Positions 53,915 through 61,779 of a DNA stretch of 64,000 nucleotides are shown here, one piece after another; the first letter of the stretch is position 1; each line of letters starts with the position of its first letter. Source of the stretch: Flavobacterium restrictum. GTDB taxonomy: Bacteria > Bacteroidota > Bacteroidia > Flavobacteriales > Flavobacteriaceae. Under the pieces are notes generated by a model, which saw only the letters and a program-made list of their open reading frames with translations, searched no databases and was not told the DNA's origin. The stretch covers positions 1 through 64,000 of the forward strand of contig NZ_VJZT01000006.1 of NCBI RefSeq assembly GCF_007097245.1. The letters are read 5' to 3'. The translations under genes were made by a program, and so were the position numbers.

Positions 53915-54186
53915 CGGGCTGTTTTCCAAAAAATTTCTGCTAATTTAAAGATAAAAAAAATAGTAAAGCGCTACAATTTGCTATGCGTGCATATAATTAT
54001 CGAATTTTATCTTTTTGGCTAAATTACTGATAATTTTTTAATGAATTGTCAAAATGATTGCGTTTTTAATTTAGTAATTGTAGGGATTGATAATCAGCTG
54101 TTTTTTGATTGACATCGAATTGGAAAGTATTGTCCAAAAAAAATGCCTCGAAACTAGCGAGGCATTTTTAGGTATTTTAAAGCAAA

Positions 54187-57033
54187 CTAGTTTTCCATAT
54201 ACGCTTCAATTGGAGCGCAACTGCAAACTAAATTTCTATCACCATACGCTTCATCGGCACGACGAACGGTAGGCCAAAATTTGTTTTCGGCAATGTAATC
54301 CAACGGAAATGCGGCTTGTTCACGAGTGTATGGATAGACCCAATTGTCAGTCGTAACCATCATTAAAGTATGTGGTGCGTTTTTCAAAACATTGTTAGAA
54401 TCGTCAGCTGTAGCTGCTTCAATTTCTTTTCTAATAGCAATCATAGCATCACAAAAACGATCTAATTCTTCCAAGTTTTCACTTTCGGTAGGTTCAATCA
54501 TGAGCGTTCCAGCTACTGGAAATGATACTGTTGGGGCATGAAATCCATAATCCATTAATCGTTTGGCGATATCCGTTACTTCAATTCCTTTTTCTTTAAA
54601 GGGACGGCATTCTAAAATCATTTCGTGTGCTGCGCGACCCATTTCGCCAGAATACAACGTATCGTAATGTCCGTTTAATTTTTCTTTGATGTAATTGGCA
54701 TTCAAAATCGCATATTCAGTCGATTTTTTCAAACCTTCGGCACCCAACATGCAAATATATCCGTAAGAAATCAAGCAAACTAAAGCCGAACCCCAAGGTG
54801 CAGCAGAAATTGCCGTAATAGCATTTGAACCACCAGTAGGAATCACAGGATTGGTTGGTAAAAATGGAACCAATTGTGGTGCAACGCAAATAGGCCCAAC
54901 TCCTGGACCACCGCCTCCATGAGGAATAGCGAAGGTTTTGTGTAAGTTCAAGTGACACACATCTGCTCCAATTGTTGCTGGATTTGTTAATCCAACTTGA
55001 GCATTCATATTGGCACCATCCATGTAAACTTGTCCACCATTATCGTGAATAAGTTGCGTTATTTCTTTAATGGCACTTTCAAAAACACCGTGTGTTGATG
55101 GATAAGTCACCATTAAACAAGAAAGATTATCCTTGTGAAGAATTGCTTTCTCTCGCAAATCTTCTACATCAATATTTCCGTTTTCCAATGTTTTGGTAAC
55201 GATAACTTTCATCCCTGCCATCGCTGCCGAAGCTGGATTAGTTCCGTGAGCCGATGACGGAATCAAAGCAATATTCCTATGATAATCGCCGCGAGATTGG
55301 TGATAGGCACGAATAACCATTAATCCGGCATATTCCCCTTGCGCACCAGAATTGGGTTGTAATGTTGTTCCTGCAAAACCAGTAATTACGTTTAATTGTT
55401 GCTCTAATTTAGACAACATTTCTTGGTATCCTTGTGCTTGATCTAGCGGAGCAAATGGGTGAATGTTGTTCCATTGTGCCATACTTAAAGGTAACATTTC
55501 TGAAGCTGCATTCAATTTCATCGTGCAAGAACCCAATGAAATCATCGAGTGATTTAACGCTAAATCTTTACGTTCTAACATTTTGATATAGCGCATCAAA
55601 GCCGTTTCTGAATGGTATTTATTGAAAACATCATGTTGTAAAAAGGGGGATGTTCTAATCCCCTCCCCAGCCCTCCCCGAAGTGGAGGGAGCTGAAACTG
55701 GAAAAAATTCTTTATTACTTGCTTCTGCAAAAATTCCTGTTATTTTGTTTACATCCCCAATGCTTGTGGTTTCGTTCAACGAAATAGAAATCGTATTTTC
55801 ATCTATATAATAAAAATTAACTTCGTTTTGTTCGGCAATTTCTTTTACTTTTTGAGCATTAGCTTTAATCACAATGGTGTCAAAAAAAGCGGTATTGGTT
55901 TGTTCGAAACCTAATTTTTTTAATGCCTCTTCCAACGTTACAGCCATTGCATGCACTTTGTTAGCAATGTATTTTAAACCTTTTGAACCATGATATACGC
56001 CATACATTCCCGCCATTACGGACAATAAAACTTGTGCCGTACAAATATTTGAAGTCGCTTTATCTCGCTTAATGTGTTGTTCCCGTGTTTGTAACGCCAT
56101 ACGAAGTGCTCGGTTGCCATTGGTATCAACCGTTACACCAATAATACGTCCTGGCATCGAACGTTTGTAGTCGTTTTTGGTTGCAAAATAAGCGGCATGG
56201 GGTCCACCGTATCCTAACGGAATTCCAAAACGTTGTGTGGTTCCAAGTACTACTGCCGCTCCCATTTCTCCTGGAGGTGTCAGTTTGGTTAAACTCAAAA
56301 TATCGGCAGCAACGGCAACTTTTATCTCATTTGCGGCAGCTTTTGCGATAAAATCCGTATAGTCATTTACCTGCCCGTATTTGCCTGGATATTGTAGGAT
56401 TGCTCCATAAAAATCTTTTGAGAAATCAAATGTTTCGTGGTTTCCTAGTACTAATTCCACACCAATTGGTGTAGCCCGTGTTTGTAAAACAGATAGCGTT
56501 TGTGGTAAAATTTCTTCGGAAACGAAGAATTTATTTATATTATTTTTCTTTTGGTCACGAGAACGAACGTCAAATAATAGTGCCATTGCTTCGGCAGCTG
56601 CGGTTCCTTCGTCAAGAAGTGATGCATTGGCAATTTCCATTCCGGTTAACTCAATAACCATGGTTTGGAAATTCAAAATTGCTTCCAAACGCCCTTGTGC
56701 AATTTCGGCTTGATAAGGCGTGTAAGCCGTGTACCAACCCGGATTTTCGAATACATTGCGTTGAATTACAGCGGGAATAATGGCTTGATTGTAGCCTAAA
56801 CCGATGTAGGATTGAAACATTTTGTTTTTATTTCCTAATTTTTGAATGTGATTGGCAAACTCATATTCGGTCATGGCGGGATCTAGATCCAAATCAGATT
56901 TTAAGCGGATATCATTCGGAATCGTTTCGGAAATTAATTGGTCAAGTGTTGCTGCACCAATTGTTTGCAACATGTGTTGTAGGTCATTTTCTCTTGGCCC
57001 AATGTGTCTTAAAGCAAAAGCATCTGTTCTCAT
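54187..57033 (-). CDS. gcvP: Glycine dehydrogenase (decarboxylating), P-protein
   Basis: The PLP subunit of the glycine cleavage system. From the ATG at 57033 the product is 948 residues (the frame extends 11 codons upstream). N-terminal FALRHIGPRENDLQHML, MPGRIIGVTVDTNGNRALRM and TSNICTAQVLLSVMAG in the first half, NHSMISLGSCTMKLNAASEM, GANMNAQVGLTNPATIGADVC and HLNLHKTFAIPHGGGGPGVG (PLP lysine) in the second half are all present. At about residues 446-461, between the two halves, lies a foreign-looking APSTSGRAGEGIRTSP segment encoded by a palindromic repeat (55655-55696). It does not break the frame. Confidence 0.95.
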   Translation of the reverse strand: MRTDAFALRHIGPRENDLQHMLQTIGAATLDQLISETIPNDIRLKSDLDLDPAMTEYEFANHIQKLGNKNKMFQSYIGLGYNQAIIPAVIQRNVFENPGWYTAYTPYQAEIAQGRLEAILNFQTMVIELTGMEIANASLLDEGTAAAEAMALLFDVRSRDQKKNNINKFFVSEEILPQTLSVLQTRATPIGVELVLGNHETFDFSKDFYGAILQYPGKYGQVNDYTDFIAKAAANEIKVAVAADILSLTKLTPPGEMGAAVVLGTTQRFGIPLGYGGPHAAYFATKNDYKRSMPGRIIGVTVDTNGNRALRMALQTREQHIKRDKATSNICTAQVLLSVMAGMYGVYHGSKGLKYIANKVHAMAVTLEEALKKLGFEQTNTAFFDTIVIKANAQKVKEIAEQNEVNFYYIDENTISISLNETTSIGDVNKITGIFAEASNKEFFPVSAPSTSGRAGEGIRTSPFLQHDVFNKYHSETALMRYIKMLERKDLALNHSMISLGSCTMKLNAASEMLPLSMAQWNNIHPFAPLDQAQGYQEMLSKLEQQLNVITGFAGTTLQPNSGAQGEYAGLMVIRAYHQSRGDYHRNIALIPSSAHGTNPASAAMAGMKVIVTKTLENGNIDVEDLREKAILHKDNLSCLMVTYPSTHGVFESAIKEITQLIHDNGGQVYMDGANMNAQVGLTNPATIGADVCHLNLHKTFAIPHGGGGPGVGPICVAPQLVPFLPTNPVIPTGGSNAITAISAAPWGSALVCLISYGYICMLGAEGLKKSTEYAILNANYIKEKLNGHYDTLYSGEMGRAAHEMILECRPFKEKGIEVTDIAKRLMDYGFHAPTVSFPVAGTLMIEPTESENLEELDRFCDAMIAIRKEIEAATADDSNNVLKNAPHTLMMVTTDNWVYPYTREQAAFPLDYIAENKFWPTVRRADEAYGDRNLVCSCAPIEAYMEN
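55655..55696 (-). repeat. Coding palindromic repeat inside gcvP
   Basis: The plus-strand sequence CCCTCCCCAGCCCTCCCCG followed by AAGTGGAGGGAG is partly self-complementary (CTCC-rich arm against GGAGGGAG). A closely related sequence lies inside hutU at 59749-59791, in the same orientation and reading frame, giving SGRAGxGI in both proteins. Confidence 0.85.
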
Positions 57034-57063
57034 GGCAATGTAAAAGTATTGTTTTTTGAGGTG

Positions 57064-57071
57064 CAAAAATA
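57064..57071 (-). promoter_or_regulatory. -7 box of gcvP
   Basis: TATTTTTG on the minus strand, 30 bases upstream of the gcvP ATG at 57033. It lies inside the longer open frame, which supports the shorter start. Confidence 0.5.
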
Positions 57072-57155
57072 AATATTAATCTTCTAATAAAGGTGTTTTT
57101 TGGCTTCATTTTATATGAATTTTTCAACTAAATCGCTGATTTGTTCACAATTGAT

Positions 57156-57163
57156 TAATTTTG
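57156..57163 (+). promoter_or_regulatory. -7 box directly before the UbiA-like gene
   Basis: TAATTTTG followed by four bases (TCTA) and the ATG at 57168; spacing fits a leaderless mRNA. Confidence 0.4.
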
Positions 57164-57167
57164 TCTA

Positions 57168-58013
57168 ATGAAGATTTTTAAACATATTCTCGATTTTTAC
57201 ATCAATAGCAGCATTCATGTGGGTTTGTCTTGTTATGCCTTGGTGCGAATCACGCAAATGAAGTTCCACATTTTGGGGGATGAGTCGGTAGCTTATTTTG
57301 CTTTTTTTGGTACAATTGTGGGGTATAATTTTGTGAAGTACGATGCTTTGGCAAGAGCCAAAAAATTTGAAATGCGAAACCAATTAAAATTGATTGCCGT
57401 TTTTAGTTTTTGCGCGTTGTTGCTTGTGTGCTACTATTTTTGGGAGTTGCAACGAGCCACGCAACTAGTTTCTGTAGCTGTATTGGGAATTACGTTGTTG
57501 TACACGCTTTCTTTTTTTCCGAACAAAAAAAATGCCCGCAATTGGGCTGGTGTAAAAATTTATATCGTGGCGGTATGTTGGGCTGGGGTTACAGTAGTTT
57601 TGCCTTTTTTGAATTCCAAAAGCACGCTTTCGTATGGTTTTTATCTCGAATGTGTGCAACGCTTTGTCTTGATCTTTGTACTGATTCTTATTTTTGAAAT
57701 CATTGATTTGACCAAGGATGATCCCCATTTAAAAACAGTTCCGCAGCAAATAGGGGTGAAGAAAACCAAAACTCTTGGATTTGTTTTATTATTTGTATTT
57801 TGTGCACTAGCGTTTTGGACTGTTAATGCTAATGCTAATTTTGAAGTTTTACAATTGCAATTGGTTTTTATAATAACAATTGTTATTGCTTTTTTTCTGG
57901 CTTTTGCCAATACCCAACGCTCGAATTATTATACTGCTTTTTGGGTAGAAAGTATCCCTATTGTATGGTGGCTGTTGCTCTTCGTTTTAGTTAATTGCGT
58001 CCGGCGTTTCTAA
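57168..58013 (+). CDS. UbiA-like prenyltransferase-fold membrane protein
   Basis: A 281-residue protein with about eight transmembrane helices. In UbiA proteins an NDxxDxxxD motif follows helix 2 and a DxxxDxxxD motif follows helix 6. Here the first appears as GYNFVKYDALARAK (Asn and one Asp kept) and the second as EIIDLTKDDPHLKTVPQQIG (well preserved). It may therefore be a divergent or inactive UbiA-fold enzyme. Its 3' end overlaps the convergent haemoglobin gene by 23 bp. Confidence 0.65.
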   Translation: MKIFKHILDFYINSSIHVGLSCYALVRITQMKFHILGDESVAYFAFFGTIVGYNFVKYDALARAKKFEMRNQLKLIAVFSFCALLLVCYYFWELQRATQLVSVAVLGITLLYTLSFFPNKKNARNWAGVKIYIVAVCWAGVTVVLPFLNSKSTLSYGFYLECVQRFVLIFVLILIFEIIDLTKDDPHLKTVPQQIGVKKTKTLGFVLLFVFCALAFWTVNANANFEVLQLQLVFIITIVIAFFLAFANTQRSNYYTAFWVESIPIVWWLLLFVLVNCVRRF

Positions 58014-58377
58014 AATACTCGATTTTATAATTAAACATTTGCGCCATATTTTGGGCTCTTAATTTGGCATCATCGGCTAATTTTCCTGTAAATAAATGGT
58101 CTACGGTTTCCGTAAATAGCGCCATCCAACGGTCAAAATGTTGAGTGTTCACAGGCAACTGTTTGTGAGGTGGGAAAGGACTTCCTGTATATGTGTGTTC
58201 TTCTAATAAAATGGTTTGCCAAAAACGATACATTTTTTCTAAATGTTCAGGCCATCTTCCCATTATTTTTTCGTTAAAAATAGGACCAATAAGTGCGTCT
58301 TCTTGCACTTTGGAATAGAACGAATTTACTAATAATTTGATGTCTTCTAAACTGGTAATGTCTGTATTTGGAGTCAT
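57991..58377 (-). CDS. Group III truncated haemoglobin
   Basis: A 128-residue 2-over-2 globin. VNSFYSKVQEDALIGPIFNEKI (helix B-C/E region) and WPEHLEKMYRFWQTILL, followed by PHKQLPVNTQHFDRWMALFTETV, where the His in HFDRW is the expected proximal haem ligand. Length and the NTQHFDRW motif place it in group III. It may handle oxygen, nitric oxide or redox stress. Confidence 0.92.
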   Translation of the reverse strand: MTPNTDITSLEDIKLLVNSFYSKVQEDALIGPIFNEKIMGRWPEHLEKMYRFWQTILLEEHTYTGSPFPPHKQLPVNTQHFDRWMALFTETVDHLFTGKLADDAKLRAQNMAQMFNYKIEYFRNAGRN

Positions 58378-58387
58378 AATAGCGTGT

Positions 58388-58413
58388 AAAAAAGCCTACG
58401 CAAAGGTAGGCTA
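58388..58413 (-). terminator. Terminator between the haemoglobin and DUF4136 genes
   Basis: On the minus strand AGCCTAC pairs with GTAGGCT around a 6-base loop, followed by a run of T. It would end the DUF4136 transcript just before the haemoglobin gene. Confidence 0.8.
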
Positions 58414-58447
58414 TTTGTAATTGTTTTATAAAAATAAATGGATGATT

Positions 58448-58981
58448 CTATTTTTTAACTGGCGGATATTGCGCTAAAATTTTACTCACAAACTCGGCAA
58501 CACGTTCGTCTTTGTGTGCGGTGTTTTTGGTCAAAATACCACTTCCTTCGCCTTGCCAAATCATTTCTTTCTTTTTGGCATCGATTAAATCAATGTACAA
58601 AGTGCCTTCCGTCGATGTAGAAACGCTGGTTTGACCGCCCATCATGTAAGGATTCCAACCGTATCCCCAACCATAACCCCATCCGGCATTGAACTGGTTT
58701 ACGTTGACTTGTTGGCGGGATTTGGTGAAAATATTGATTAATAAATCGGGATTTTCACTTTTTGTAAATCCTTTTGCTGTCATTTGGTCGTCAATGGCGT
58801 GTAGAATTCTGCGTTTATCCAAATCCGAAATTTCTACTTTGTCAATCCCCGCTTTAAAAAAAGCATAGGTTTTATACGGTGCAAAATCCACGTTTTTATC
58901 GTAATCCGAGTTGACGCTTACGGAACTGCAAGAAGCCATAACAAAGAGGAATAATAGCGGTACTAATTTAATTGTTTTCAT
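58448..58981 (-). CDS. DUF4136 lipoprotein
   Basis: A 177-residue lipoprotein (lipobox LFVMASC, Cys18). The DUF4136 pattern is visible: VDFAPYKTYAFFKAGI, LDKRRILHAIDDQMTAKGFT, PDLLINIFTKS, a Gly/Trp/Tyr-rich AGWGYGWGYGWNPYM stretch, GTLYIDLIDAKKKEMIWQGEG, and the VAEFVSKILAQYPP end. Function unknown; probably periplasmic or outer-membrane. Confidence 0.9.
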   Translation of the reverse strand: MKTIKLVPLLFLFVMASCSSVSVNSDYDKNVDFAPYKTYAFFKAGIDKVEISDLDKRRILHAIDDQMTAKGFTKSENPDLLINIFTKSRQQVNVNQFNAGWGYGWGYGWNPYMMGGQTSVSTSTEGTLYIDLIDAKKKEMIWQGEGSGILTKNTAHKDERVAEFVSKILAQYPPVKK

Positions 58982-59021
58982 ATTTAGTCTTTTTTAAATT
59001 TTGGGTTCTATTCTTTTGTTT

Positions 59022-61037
59022 CTAAAATAACTGTTCATCGACACTATTTGGGAGAGTTACTTTCAATAATGGTTCTTTTTCCATGGCTCTTTTTATAGCA
59101 AAAATGGCTCCTTCGTTTCTGGCCCAACTGCGTCTGGAAATTCCGTTATTGACATCCCAAAAAAGCATAGATGCCAATCGTTTGGAAGCTGCTGTAGAAC
59201 CATCAAGAACCATACCAAAGCCACCGTTAATAACCTCGCCCCAGCCTACGCCGCCGCCATTGTGTATAGAAACCCAAGTAGCACCACGAAAGCTATCGCC
59301 AATCACGTTTTGTATCGCCATATCAGCTGTGAAGCGGGAACCATCATAAATATTCGAAGTTTCTCGGTAGGGCGAATCCGTTCCAGAAACATCGTGATGA
59401 TCCCGACCCAGGATAACGGTTTCTATCTCGCTTTTGGCAATAGCCTGATTGAATGCTTCGGCAATTTTTACACGACCTTCGGCATCGGCATAAAGGATTC
59501 GGGCTTGCGAACCTACGACCAATTTATTTTCTTGCGCGCCTTTTATCCATTGTATGTTATCTTGGATTTGCTGCTGTATTTCAATAGGAGCAGTTTTGGA
59601 CATTTCTTCCAAAACTTGACAAGCAATGGCATCTGTTTTGGCTAAATCTTCCAGTTTTCCTGAAGCACAAACCCAACGGAAAGGACCAAAACCATAATCA
59701 AAACACATAGGGCCCATAATGTCTTGCACATAACTTGGGTATCGGAAGTCAATCCCCACCCCAGCCCTCCCCGAAGGAGAGGGAGAAGCACCGTTTTCTT
59801 CTTTTAAAATATCAGCACTAGCACGAGAAGCTTCCAGCAAAAAAGCATTTCCGTAATCAAAGAAATACGTTCCTTTGACGGTATGTTTGTTGATGGCTAT
59901 GGTGTGGCGGCGCAAAGTTTCTTGTACTTTTTTCTTAAATAAAACTGGATTGTTCGCCATCATATCGTTGGCTTCCTCAAATGAAATTTCAACAGGATAA
60001 TAACCGCCAGCCCACGGATTGTGGAGTGAAGTTTGGTCAGAACCCAAATCAATATGAATGTTTTCTTCATCAAATCGTTCCCAGACATGAACTATATTCC
60101 CGAGGTAGGCAATAGAAACCGTTTCGTTATTGGCTTTCGCCAAAGTAACTCTTTTGACCAATTGGTCTAAATCTTCGATGACTTCGTTTATCCAACCTTG
60201 ACTGTGGCGAATGTGGGTGATTTTGGCATTTACCTCGGCACAAACCGTTATACAACCCGCAATATTTCCCGCTTTGGGTTGTGCACCACTCATTCCGCCA
60301 AGTCCAGAAGTTACAAACAAACCTCCTTTTGGGGAACGTTTTATTTTACGGAAACCATTCAAAACAGTTATGGTTGTTCCGTGTACAATGCCTTGTGGAC
60401 CAATGTACATATAACTTCCCGCAGTCATTTGCCCGTATTGGGAAACGCCCAAAGCATTCATCCTTTCCCAATCATCGGGTTGCGAATAATTAGGGATTAC
60501 CATTCCGTTGGTCACCACCACTCTCGGCGCTTCCTTGTGCGAAGGGAATAATCCCATGGGATGCCCGGAATACATCGTCAAGGTTTGCTCATCTGTCATT
60601 TCTGATAAGTATTGCATCGTTAACAGGTATTGCGCCCAGTTCGAGAAAACCGCTCCGTTCCCGCCATAGGTAATCAATTCGTGCGGATGTTGCGCCACGG
60701 CATAATCCAGATTGTTCTGAATCATCAGCATAATGGCTTTGGCTTGCTCACTTTTTCCAGGATATTCAGAGATTGGGCGGGCATACATTTTATAATCGGG
60801 ACGCAAACGGTACATGTAAATACGGCCGTAAGTGGCTAGTTCGTTGCGAAATTCAGGAATTAATTCGGCGTGATGCTGTGGTTCAAAATAACGCAAAGCA
60901 TTCTTAAGGGCCAGTTTTTTCTCATCGTTTGACAAGATGTCTTTTCGCTTGGGAGCGTGGTTAATGTTTGTTTCGTACGCTTTTGGTTGAGGTAATATAG
61001 CAGGAATTCCTTGTTGTATTTGTTCTTGAAAAGTCAT
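59022..61037 (-). CDS. hutU: Urocanate hydratase
   Basis: This NAD-dependent enzyme converts urocanate to imidazolonepropionate in histidine breakdown. Of 671 residues, LITYGGNGAVFSNWAQYLLTM, YSGHPMGLFPSHKEAPRVV, YMYIGPQGIVHGT and LFVTSGLGGMSGAQPKAGN are characteristic, as are SIHNGGGVGWGEVINGGFGMV and MGPMCFDYGFGPFRWVCASG. Around residues 416-430, a ASPSPSGRAGVGIDF segment derived from a palindromic repeat (59749-59791) sits next to the conserved DYGNAFLLEAS block. No other hut gene is in the window. Confidence 0.93.
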   Translation of the reverse strand: MTFQEQIQQGIPAILPQPKAYETNINHAPKRKDILSNDEKKLALKNALRYFEPQHHAELIPEFRNELATYGRIYMYRLRPDYKMYARPISEYPGKSEQAKAIMLMIQNNLDYAVAQHPHELITYGGNGAVFSNWAQYLLTMQYLSEMTDEQTLTMYSGHPMGLFPSHKEAPRVVVTNGMVIPNYSQPDDWERMNALGVSQYGQMTAGSYMYIGPQGIVHGTTITVLNGFRKIKRSPKGGLFVTSGLGGMSGAQPKAGNIAGCITVCAEVNAKITHIRHSQGWINEVIEDLDQLVKRVTLAKANNETVSIAYLGNIVHVWERFDEENIHIDLGSDQTSLHNPWAGGYYPVEISFEEANDMMANNPVLFKKKVQETLRRHTIAINKHTVKGTYFFDYGNAFLLEASRASADILKEENGASPSPSGRAGVGIDFRYPSYVQDIMGPMCFDYGFGPFRWVCASGKLEDLAKTDAIACQVLEEMSKTAPIEIQQQIQDNIQWIKGAQENKLVVGSQARILYADAEGRVKIAEAFNQAIAKSEIETVILGRDHHDVSGTDSPYRETSNIYDGSRFTADMAIQNVIGDSFRGATWVSIHNGGGVGWGEVINGGFGMVLDGSTAASKRLASMLFWDVNNGISRRSWARNEGAIFAIKRAMEKEPLLKVTLPNSVDEQLF
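59749..59791 (-). repeat. Coding palindromic repeat inside hutU
   Basis: AATCCCCACCCCAGCCC followed by TCCCCGAAGGAGAGGGAGAA on the plus strand, related to 55655-55696 inside gcvP with few differences. It is read in the same frame (SGRAGxGI) and leaves the gene open. Confidence 0.85.
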
Positions 61038-61238
61038 TTTTTTGGTTTTTAAAATCTAAAATTAAAGGGTATGTATTGTTTTTAAAAATGCTGAAAAACA
61101 ACATCCACTAGGGATATCGTATATCCGACCTGTGGTAGGATTTATGAATTTTTATTTTATATTTTAAAGAAAGAATGTCCATAAATAATAATGTAATACT
61201 GTTTTCTGAAAGTTGAATACTAAAAAAAGGAACACTGA

Positions 61239-61415
61239 TCACTTTTTCAAAAGCCCCGTTTTTTTATCAAATCCATACGGACAATGGCGGCAACCGCTTT
61301 TGCAACAATGACCTCTTTTTAAATGGTATTTCTCGGTGAAACACCTATAGCCTTCGGGGGTTAAATAAAAATCTTCGCCTTCTATTAATTTATTTTCGTT
61401 ATTTTGCTCCTTCAT
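61239..61415 (-). CDS. Small cysteine-rich protein (DUF5522-like)
   Basis: A 58-residue protein from the ATG at 61415. After LIEGEDFYLTPEGYRCFTEKYH comes KRGHCCKSGCRHCPYGFD, with Cys-Cys-x3-Cys-x2-Cys, a probable metal site. It matches short proteins annotated DUF5522. The open frame upstream to 61454 adds a non-conserved tail. A -7 box ends five bases before the ATG. Confidence 0.8.
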   Translation of the reverse strand: MKEQNNENKLIEGEDFYLTPEGYRCFTEKYHLKRGHCCKSGCRHCPYGFDKKTGLLKK

Positions 61416-61420
61416 AGCAA

Positions 61421-61428
61421 CAAATTTA
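61421..61428 (-). promoter_or_regulatory. -7 box directly before the DUF5522-like gene
   Basis: TAAATTTG on the minus strand, then five bases (TTGCT) and ATG. Confidence 0.4.
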
Positions 61429-61443
61429 TAAACTTTATAACGA

Positions 61444-61779
61444 ATGTACTTCATTGTTACGAAATATTTAATACCAAAAGGATATCGTGGTTTGGCGGCT
61501 TTTCCGTTTGTTTTTGTAAAATATCGGAGCGATATCGAGAATAAAACTTTTGTTACTCATGAGCGTATTCATTTGCGGCAGCAGCTGGAATTGTTAGTGA
61601 TTCCATTTTTTATTTGGTATGGTTTAGAATATCTTTTTCGGCTTATGCAGTACAAAAAAAAGGATTTAGCCTACCGAAATATTAGTTTCGAACGAGAAGC
61701 GTATGCCTATGAATTGGATTGTGACTATTTGAAAAAAAGATCTTTTTGGGGATTTTTACCCTTTTTACATTTAAAATAA
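61444..61779 (+). CDS. Conserved hypothetical protein with a THERIHLRQQLE motif
   Basis: A 111-residue protein. THERIHLRQQLELL (about 39-52) is HExxH-like in HERIH and resembles small peptidase-fold or regulatory membrane proteins. A hydrophobic helix (LLVIPFFIWYGLEYLF, about 51-66) and an EREAYAYELD segment (about 83-92) follow. HERIH...E could form a gluzincin-like zinc site, but I do not recognise the family. It is in the same direction as the desulfhydrase gene 10 bp later. Confidence 0.55.
   Translation: MYFIVTKYLIPKGYRGLAAFPFVFVKYRSDIENKTFVTHERIHLRQQLELLVIPFFIWYGLEYLFRLMQYKKKDLAYRNISFEREAYAYELDCDYLKKRSFWGFLPFLHLK

Follow-up and report, generated by a model that had tools for sequence, protein, structure and literature searches.

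In-frame palindromic repeats in gcvP and hutU of Flavobacterium restrictum are probable solo ends of a DUF559 nuclease-coding element

Introduction

Rickettsia palindromic elements occur as in-frame insertions across many unrelated conserved genes. Descriptions of boxC/PIT repeats go back to the 1990s, and the related TM_ECO motif forms a triplex in vitro; in vivo footprinting gave no support for a stable triplex in cells (PMC4666352). According to the consulted text of that 2015 survey, TM_ECO is always intergenic in MG1655, mobility functions are absent from its surroundings and no mobility enzyme is named (PMC4666352). REPs that lie in frame within genes are known from other species, where tRNA synthetases and recB are also hit (PMC3733652).

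The repeat analyzed here lies within two enzyme genes, gcvP and hutU, of a 64,000-nucleotide window of Flavobacterium restrictum (contig NZ_VJZT01000006.1, positions 1 to 64,000). The sequence-only reading of this window knew of no established description for such a repeat in flavobacteria. That view needs amending: the architecture was already described in Proteobacteria as boxC/PIT/TM_ECO (PMC4666352), and REPs belonging to other families have in-frame copies in other species (PMC3733652). The repeat has the boxC/PIT/TM layout of a pyrimidine arm, loop, purine arm, 3-nt turn and mirror third strand on one strand, and it shares with that family the inverted pairs and a copy number that varies between close genomes (PMC4666352). 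It differs from TM_ECO in its arms, which are 8 nt in the window and genus copies as against the strict 9 nt, in having some copies in frame in conserved enzymes and in bracketing DUF559 genes (PMC4666352). As with REPs and REPtrons, the palindromes are short and mostly intergenic, some are genic and in frame, and they bracket a dedicated enzyme (PMC3733652). The likeness to Rickettsia palindromic elements is one of behavior and consists in insertion in frame in conserved genes (cf. PMC3733652). This comparison, drawn in the sequence-only reading, stands insofar as the empty and filled hutU, ValS and RecB-like sites point to insertions that keep conserved genes open; unlike the Rickettsia elements, the ends found here belong to a nuclease-coding element, in another phylum. 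VsrA of Caulobacter is likewise a DUF559 protein of the PD-(D/E)XK superfamily, unlike the element described here in being proposed as a mismatch-repair nuclease, with palindromes unmentioned in the consulted text of that paper (PMC12907096). Searches of open-access full text with the repeat sequence, as DNA or as translated peptide, returned no related paper, and palindromes are not the topic of the titles and abstract openings of the DUF559/YcjD papers found there.

Results

The repeat in gcvP and hutU

The 18-mer CCCCAGCCCTCCCCGAAG has exactly two copies in the window, at 55665-55682 and 59759-59776 in plus-strand coordinates, and 0.01 copies are expected from shuffling. One lies in gcvP, encoding glycine dehydrogenase (P protein; 54187..57033, minus strand, from an ATG start and stop included), and the other in hutU, encoding urocanate hydratase (59022..61037, minus strand, stop included). 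The two copies have the same orientation and frame and both genes are open through the repeat, as had been read from the sequence. The 30-nt core in gcvP (55660..55689, minus strand) is CCCTCCAC-TTC-GGGGAGGG-CTG-GGGAGGGG and reads PSTSGRAGEG; it contains a single A.G mismatch within the stem. The corresponding core in hutU (59754..59783, minus strand) is CCCTCTCC-TTC-GGGGAGGG-CTG-GGGTGGGG and reads PSPSGRAGVG. The minus-strand reading continues into isoleucine in both proteins (PSTSGRAGEGI in GcvP, PSPSGRAGVGI in HutU), and the repeats are predicted from the open frames to be translated as parts of the two enzymes.

Each protein was compared with its 29 best-matching relatives drawn from 199 same-genus genomes. 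HutU shows a clean gain of 39 bp, or 13 codons (59754..59792, minus strand), relative to empty relatives. The insertion is absent in 28 of the 29 aligned relatives and common to one (G112). The urocanase alignment would place it in a loop; the AlphaFold model of HutU had a mean pLDDT of 40.6 and was left unused. The GcvP repeat follows the Pfam GDC-P domain (residues 10-435 of the 949 searched), in the linker behind the first half, the position between the GcvP halves that had been proposed for it. In all 29 aligned GcvP relatives the linker at that place consists of other, TIETLSETNHFPEELN-like residues and is one codon longer, which indicates that the repeat replaced the linker with no net gain in length. 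The earlier claim that both proteins gained an insert is therefore borne out for HutU and not for GcvP. Since the aligned relatives have different residues, no case was found among them of a protein that lacks the DNA repeat and still carries the same residues, and an ordinary conserved linker is ruled out. A consistent target duplication was not seen; ATTG flanks the G112 copy and not the window copy.

Chance or low complexity as the origin of the repeat is ruled out by the shuffling together with a reversed control pattern, which gave zero matches in every genus-genome row. The sequences of type B and of the gcvP and hutU copies contain a four-run G3+ motif, as in G-quadruplexes, and those of types A and C lack it. 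A G-quadruplex as the main explanation would leave the arm-tail covariation described below unexplained and is kept as a side possibility only.

Predicted triplex design of the repeat unit

The unit in 149 genus copies is CCCxyzCC-TTY-GGabcGGG-YYG-GGGnGrGG, an 8-3-8-3-8 nt arrangement. The variable arm positions pair as x-c (TA in 132 copies, CG in 14) and z-a (TA in 80, CG in 51, TG in 12). The purine arm recurs in mirror image in the 3' tail: r equals a in 138/147 and n agrees with c in 146/148 scored copies, where an A in one position is matched with A or T and G with G for n against c, and two and one of the 149 copies, respectively, fell outside the A/G classes and were left out. Covariation was calculated over 162 copies, and the six strongest of 1,653 column pairs are exactly the pairs of the two triads, a signal inflated by shared descent because about three subfamilies carry it. 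A purine-motif triplex of the antiparallel kind (G*G.C, A*A.T, T*A.T) requires just such an arm and mirrored tail, and the predicted fold of the unit is an intrastrand DNA triplex. An alternative in which the tail pairs with the 5' arm is disfavored, since in the copies with a T.G wobble (TCT/GGA, 11 genus copies) the tail tracks the purine arm.

Distribution and reading frames of the repeat family

The F. restrictum genome has six places with at most two mismatches from a 17-mer of the repeat, plus more degraded ones. A genome search for further copies had been proposed, and it located in-frame copies beyond gcvP and hutU in a GH3 beta-glucosidase, near the MoaE start and, as an inverted pair, in valS; the remaining copies are intergenic. 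Related copies occur in 49/199 same-genus genomes, with up to 24 per genome among the matches listed. A one-genome-per-species collection contained one exact form in 53 stretches, most of them titled as Bacteroidota and four as Gastranaerophilales, and exact copies were few among viral contigs (2 and 4 stretches).

Reading frames were analyzed with the two window copies left out. The 129 genus sites examined among the matches listed divide into 88 intergenic sites and 41 in open frames. When genus and collection copies were combined (255), 151 were intergenic and 51 lay well inside open frames, defined as at least 20 residues within frames of at least 180 aa. These 51 copies are read in S0 (PSPSGRAGVG) in 27 cases, in A2 (TPALPEGEG) in 19 and otherwise in 5, so that 46 use two of the six frames. 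Merging by host site left S0 or A2 in 31/36 (P=9e-11). Named host genes include LeuS, AlaS, BshC, GuaA, PolA, TrpF, a P-type ATPase and ThiC. Gene assignments behind these counts follow a greedy, uncurated open-frame rule, and N-terminal copies (MoaE, TrpF, ArgG) may sit upstream of the true start.

Empty and filled sites

The ValS site was aligned in the 30 best-matching loci from 30 genomes, with F. restrictum included. It is empty (KYKIEGSEDFLT-like) in 20 loci, holds an inverted left and right pair in 6 and a single copy in 1; the other three carry a related palindrome (two) or a different repeat (one), and all states are in frame. At a site in a RecB-like protein, the interval from KFL to NAYVQYF spans 171 residues in locus L080, where it contains DUF559 and both repeats, versus 5 residues in locus L374. 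The flanks of these two proteins are identical at 395/405 and 285/300 residues, about 96% identity overall. L080 thus carries a full 513-nt insertion relative to L374, which is without any repeat. Elsewhere, the same site holds a repeat pair without the nuclease (L385) or one antisense copy (L306); the L300 and L306 sequences end at contig ends. These sites, together with the many unrelated host genes, uphold the earlier proposal of a mobile palindromic repeat tolerated in frame inside genes. Movement itself is read from the empty and filled states.

DUF559 genes between inverted repeats

Complete elements, consisting of a left repeat, DUF559 and a right repeat, are located in frame inside MetH, LeuS and RecB-like proteins. 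Pfam places DUF559 as a nested domain within UvrD_C of the RecB-like protein and also within LeuS. A genus scan detected DUF559 in 105/199 genomes, 78 of them at E<1e-20, and 50 of these 78 have a listed match in an open frame of at least 400 aa; the hosts of embedded DUF559 in the loci examined are mainly MetH and LeuS. The bracketing of DUF559 by such repeats is absent from the sequence-only reading.

Occurrence of DUF559 is associated with the repeat across genomes. Matches at E<1e-20 are present in 38/49 repeat-bearing versus 40/150 repeat-free genomes (P=6e-10), and those in open frames of at least 400 aa in 33/49 versus 17/150 (P=1e-13), with the repeat-bearing, Y1, strong-DUF559 and embedded-DUF559 sets compiled by hand among the matches listed. 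The 11 repeat-bearing genomes without a strong DUF559 match and the 40 repeat-free ones with DUF559 (among the matches listed) make the co-occurrence imperfect, perhaps because a single repeat subfamily was counted. The junction frames are nearly invariant: in the 23 embedded DUF559 genes with both junctions, the left repeat is in A2 in 23/23 and the right repeat in S0 in 22/23, with the right repeat of L416 (in S1) as the exception; four loci (L411, L414, L421, L427) were read by eye. The end frames of embedded elements are the two frames that dominate among solo copies.

Triplex motifs were scored in windows of about 250-280 nt at each DUF559 end, with equal-sized distant controls 770-1,050 nt away. 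DUF559 loci were the best-scoring 30 of each scan, and a minimum length of 2,800 bases was required, which removed 3/30 genus, 4/30 phylum and 2/57 gcvP/hutU loci. Motifs lie near 21/26 Bacteroidota loci, on both sides in 18, versus 1 in the distant windows. A hand-picked set of 16 of 43 plasmid-borne DUF559 records from Alphaproteobacteria, Deinococcota and Cyanobacteriota, in which Synechocystis and Sphingomonas contribute two plasmids each, gave 14/16 near (11 on both sides) versus 0 distant. Only 6/27 genus loci passed the triplex finder (2 on both sides, 1 distant), because the genus repeats have shorter stems. An inverted-repeat score of at least 12 was reached by 15/27 genus loci versus 0/27 controls and by 11/26 Bacteroidota loci versus 0. 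The triplex-finder controls gave 0/35 for Y1 transposase loci and 0/55 for gcvP/hutU relatives.

By eye, the repeats at three DUF559 loci (L432, L434, L468) look like TM_ECO. In Escherichia coli K-12, the C terminus of the DUF559 protein YcjD (...RRSPSP, then stop) is encoded by a boxC-like arm, and a boxC copy with three mismatches from the strict pattern lies about 160 nt downstream of ycjD. Other genes occupy the place in the two ycjD-less E. coli strains examined, and there is hence no clean empty site.

The DUF559 protein

Seven residues (E38, D67, E78, D80, H84, D93, R96) are invariant in 26 DUF559 copies and are candidate active-site residues, which could presumably form an EDxHD active site. 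The best PDB match of the DUF559 profile is 3hrl, a DUF559-like structure, and the second is 3r3p (E=4.4e-6). The predicted DUF559 fold (mean pLDDT 78.7) gives the same order, with 3hrl best, 3r3p second (E=2.9e-5) and Vsr matched weakly. The 3r3p structure is I-Bth0305I, which we take to represent the EDxHD homing endonuclease family. The DUF559 copies are predicted to be active nucleases. Unlike I-Bth0305I, whose PDB molecule name is 'mobile intron protein', DUF559 here lies within host proteins and has its own palindromic ends.

Intein and group I intron membership was also considered. No splicing (Hint) domain occurs in the Pfam matches of five DUF559-bearing host proteins. The reading frame runs open through the RecB-like element from one host flank to the other, and Rfam, run on window positions 54000-61500 only, returned no match.

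Discussion

The gcvP and hutU repeats belong with those that bracket DUF559 genes in many bacteria, and they are therefore likely to be leftover ends of a mobile element. In genome G007, a RecB-like gene contains a DUF559 element whose right end shares 93% identity with the extended gcvP unit of 44 nt (55659..55702, minus strand), which makes the window repeats best seen as solo right ends. We conclude that they are probably the solo right ends of a small element in which a DUF559 gene sits within inverted palindromes predicted to form triplexes.

We infer that the repeats were moved by DUF559. The nuclease would recognize the folded ends and cut or nick donor and target, and repair would copy the element, or one end only, to a new place. 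Genic insertions that survive would mostly be those that keep the frame and place a mild peptide, rich in Pro, Ser and Gly, within a linker or a loop. Since the profile scan gave no DUF559 match in the F. restrictum genome among the matches listed, the copies there may be relics or may owe their movement to a nuclease that acted in trans and was later lost. The gcvP site, with its replaced linker and stem mismatch, sits less easily with a solo end.

Ordinary REPs that RAYT (Y1, HUH) transposases mobilize and that enter genes in a few cases would also be short, mainly intergenic palindromes with some inverted pairs. Y1_Tnp matches occur in 144/199 genus genomes among the matches listed, and in-frame REPs are known elsewhere (PMC3733652). 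The triplex motif lies at the ends of 0/35 Y1 loci from the F. restrictum and repeat-bearing genomes, the pattern search gave one weak, distant match, and the 16 repeat matches of one genome (G029) are accompanied by no Y1 match among the matches listed. Co-occurrence is not clear either, with Y1 in 40/49 repeat-bearing versus 104/150 repeat-free genomes among the matches listed (P=0.10). The element further departs from REP/RAYT in its Vsr-like DUF559 in place of a Y1/HUH transposase, its third-strand tail and the lack of a GTAG or CGTC tag, neither of which is conserved in the consensus of 142 genus copies. A RAYT origin is largely refuted and very improbable. The element behaves as a REPtron or a homing nuclease would, yet it lacks the marks of a RAYT-REP and, in the five host proteins examined, of an intein.

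The relation between gene and repeat could be the reverse, with DUF559 genes inserting into existing triplex repeats that serve as their target and spread by other means. DUF559 resembles a homing endonuclease, whose cutting would be directed at a specific target, and this suits such an order of events, as do some genomes in which repeats are numerous and DUF559 genes rare or absent among the matches listed. A gene inserted into its target should split it, but DUF559 often lies between two complete inverted repeats; the near relative at the RecB-like site is without any repeat, and the constancy of the reading frame at each end is consistent with a single unit. We regard the repeat as mere target as unlikely. 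It has also to be asked whether an enzyme is needed at all, since template switching in replication might spread a self-folding G-rich sequence on which DUF559 hitchhikes. The replacement of nearby bases in gcvP and ValS, where no tidy insertion is seen, and the link of E. coli triplex motifs to instability (PMC4666352) accord with such a process, which leaves unaccounted for the two-sided bracketing of DUF559 across phyla, the genome-level association of DUF559 with the repeat and the full 513-nt insertion at the RecB-like site. We give this explanation hardly any chance.

A DUF559 element with mobile ends remains our preferred reading, and in its broader form it is one toward which we lean with some reserve. 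DUF559 with inverted triplex-forming ends would constitute a class of mobile elements that inserts in frame, tRNA synthetases included, and is translated unspliced. DUF559 would then be the long-missing mobilizer of boxC/PIT/TM repeats over a range that takes in Bacteroidota, Cyanobacteria and E. coli, and the solo copies in gcvP and hutU would be ends that it cast off. Little function has been assigned to the widespread DUF559 nuclease family, and linking it with boxC/PIT gives both a testable role. The link would also explain why genic solo copies mostly use two frames. It suggests that selfish DNA can live in conserved enzymes unspliced, as a tolerated read-through linker, nuclease included.

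Insertion sites in valS and the RecB-like gene

The ValS loop accommodates more than one kind of short repeat. In one Flavobacterium genome (G078, locus L345) the loop of valS carries a different short tandem repeat built of CCCAACA units, and in two genomes (L340 and L342) a different short palindrome occupies the same loop. The presence of these various sequences marks the loop as an insertion-tolerant spot. The RecB-like gene of Flavobacterium genome G112 (L382) is not open in a single frame at the site of the repeat pair, whereas its relatives read through. Either the gene is disrupted there, or the sequence may have been misassembled at a run of G residues.

Other repeats in Flavobacterium

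A subset of the repeats in three genomes (L231-L235, L256, L261, L266 and L316) shares extended conserved flanks, AAATAATCCAAT... and ...TTAAACAAAAA...ACTATTTT, and these copies are perhaps parts of a bigger composite repeat. The F. restrictum genome (G000) also contains two copies of a different, CTCCCTCKCCTTGGGAGAGGGCGGGGGG-like palindrome at L333 (G000:C21), both outside long frames. Elsewhere in the same genome, a Y1-transposase-like segment (L007, G000:C7:13507-13704) lies within an open frame of 1,274 residues resembling a restriction-modification methylase.

DUF559 genes and their end repeats

The start of the E. coli DUF559 gene ycjD (L430), on its upstream side, is spanned by a 17-bp inverted repeat, TCACCTCATTCTGACAA / TTGTCAGAATGAGGTGA. 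At least 80% of the stretch from ycjD to the boxC repeat is present in 3,362 of 5,426 E. coli genomes, and in two strains that lack ycjD (L477 and L478) a TetR-type regulator gene and an RND adaptor gene adjoin fabI. On a Sphingomonas plasmid (L470), a DUF559 gene whose ends carry triplex motifs is flanked by sufB and sufC. A distinct repeat, TCTTCCCC-TTYG-GGGAAGG..., borders the left side of the DUF559 genes embedded in LeuS (L405, L408, L415 and L420), which suggests that DUF559 lineages each have their own end repeats.
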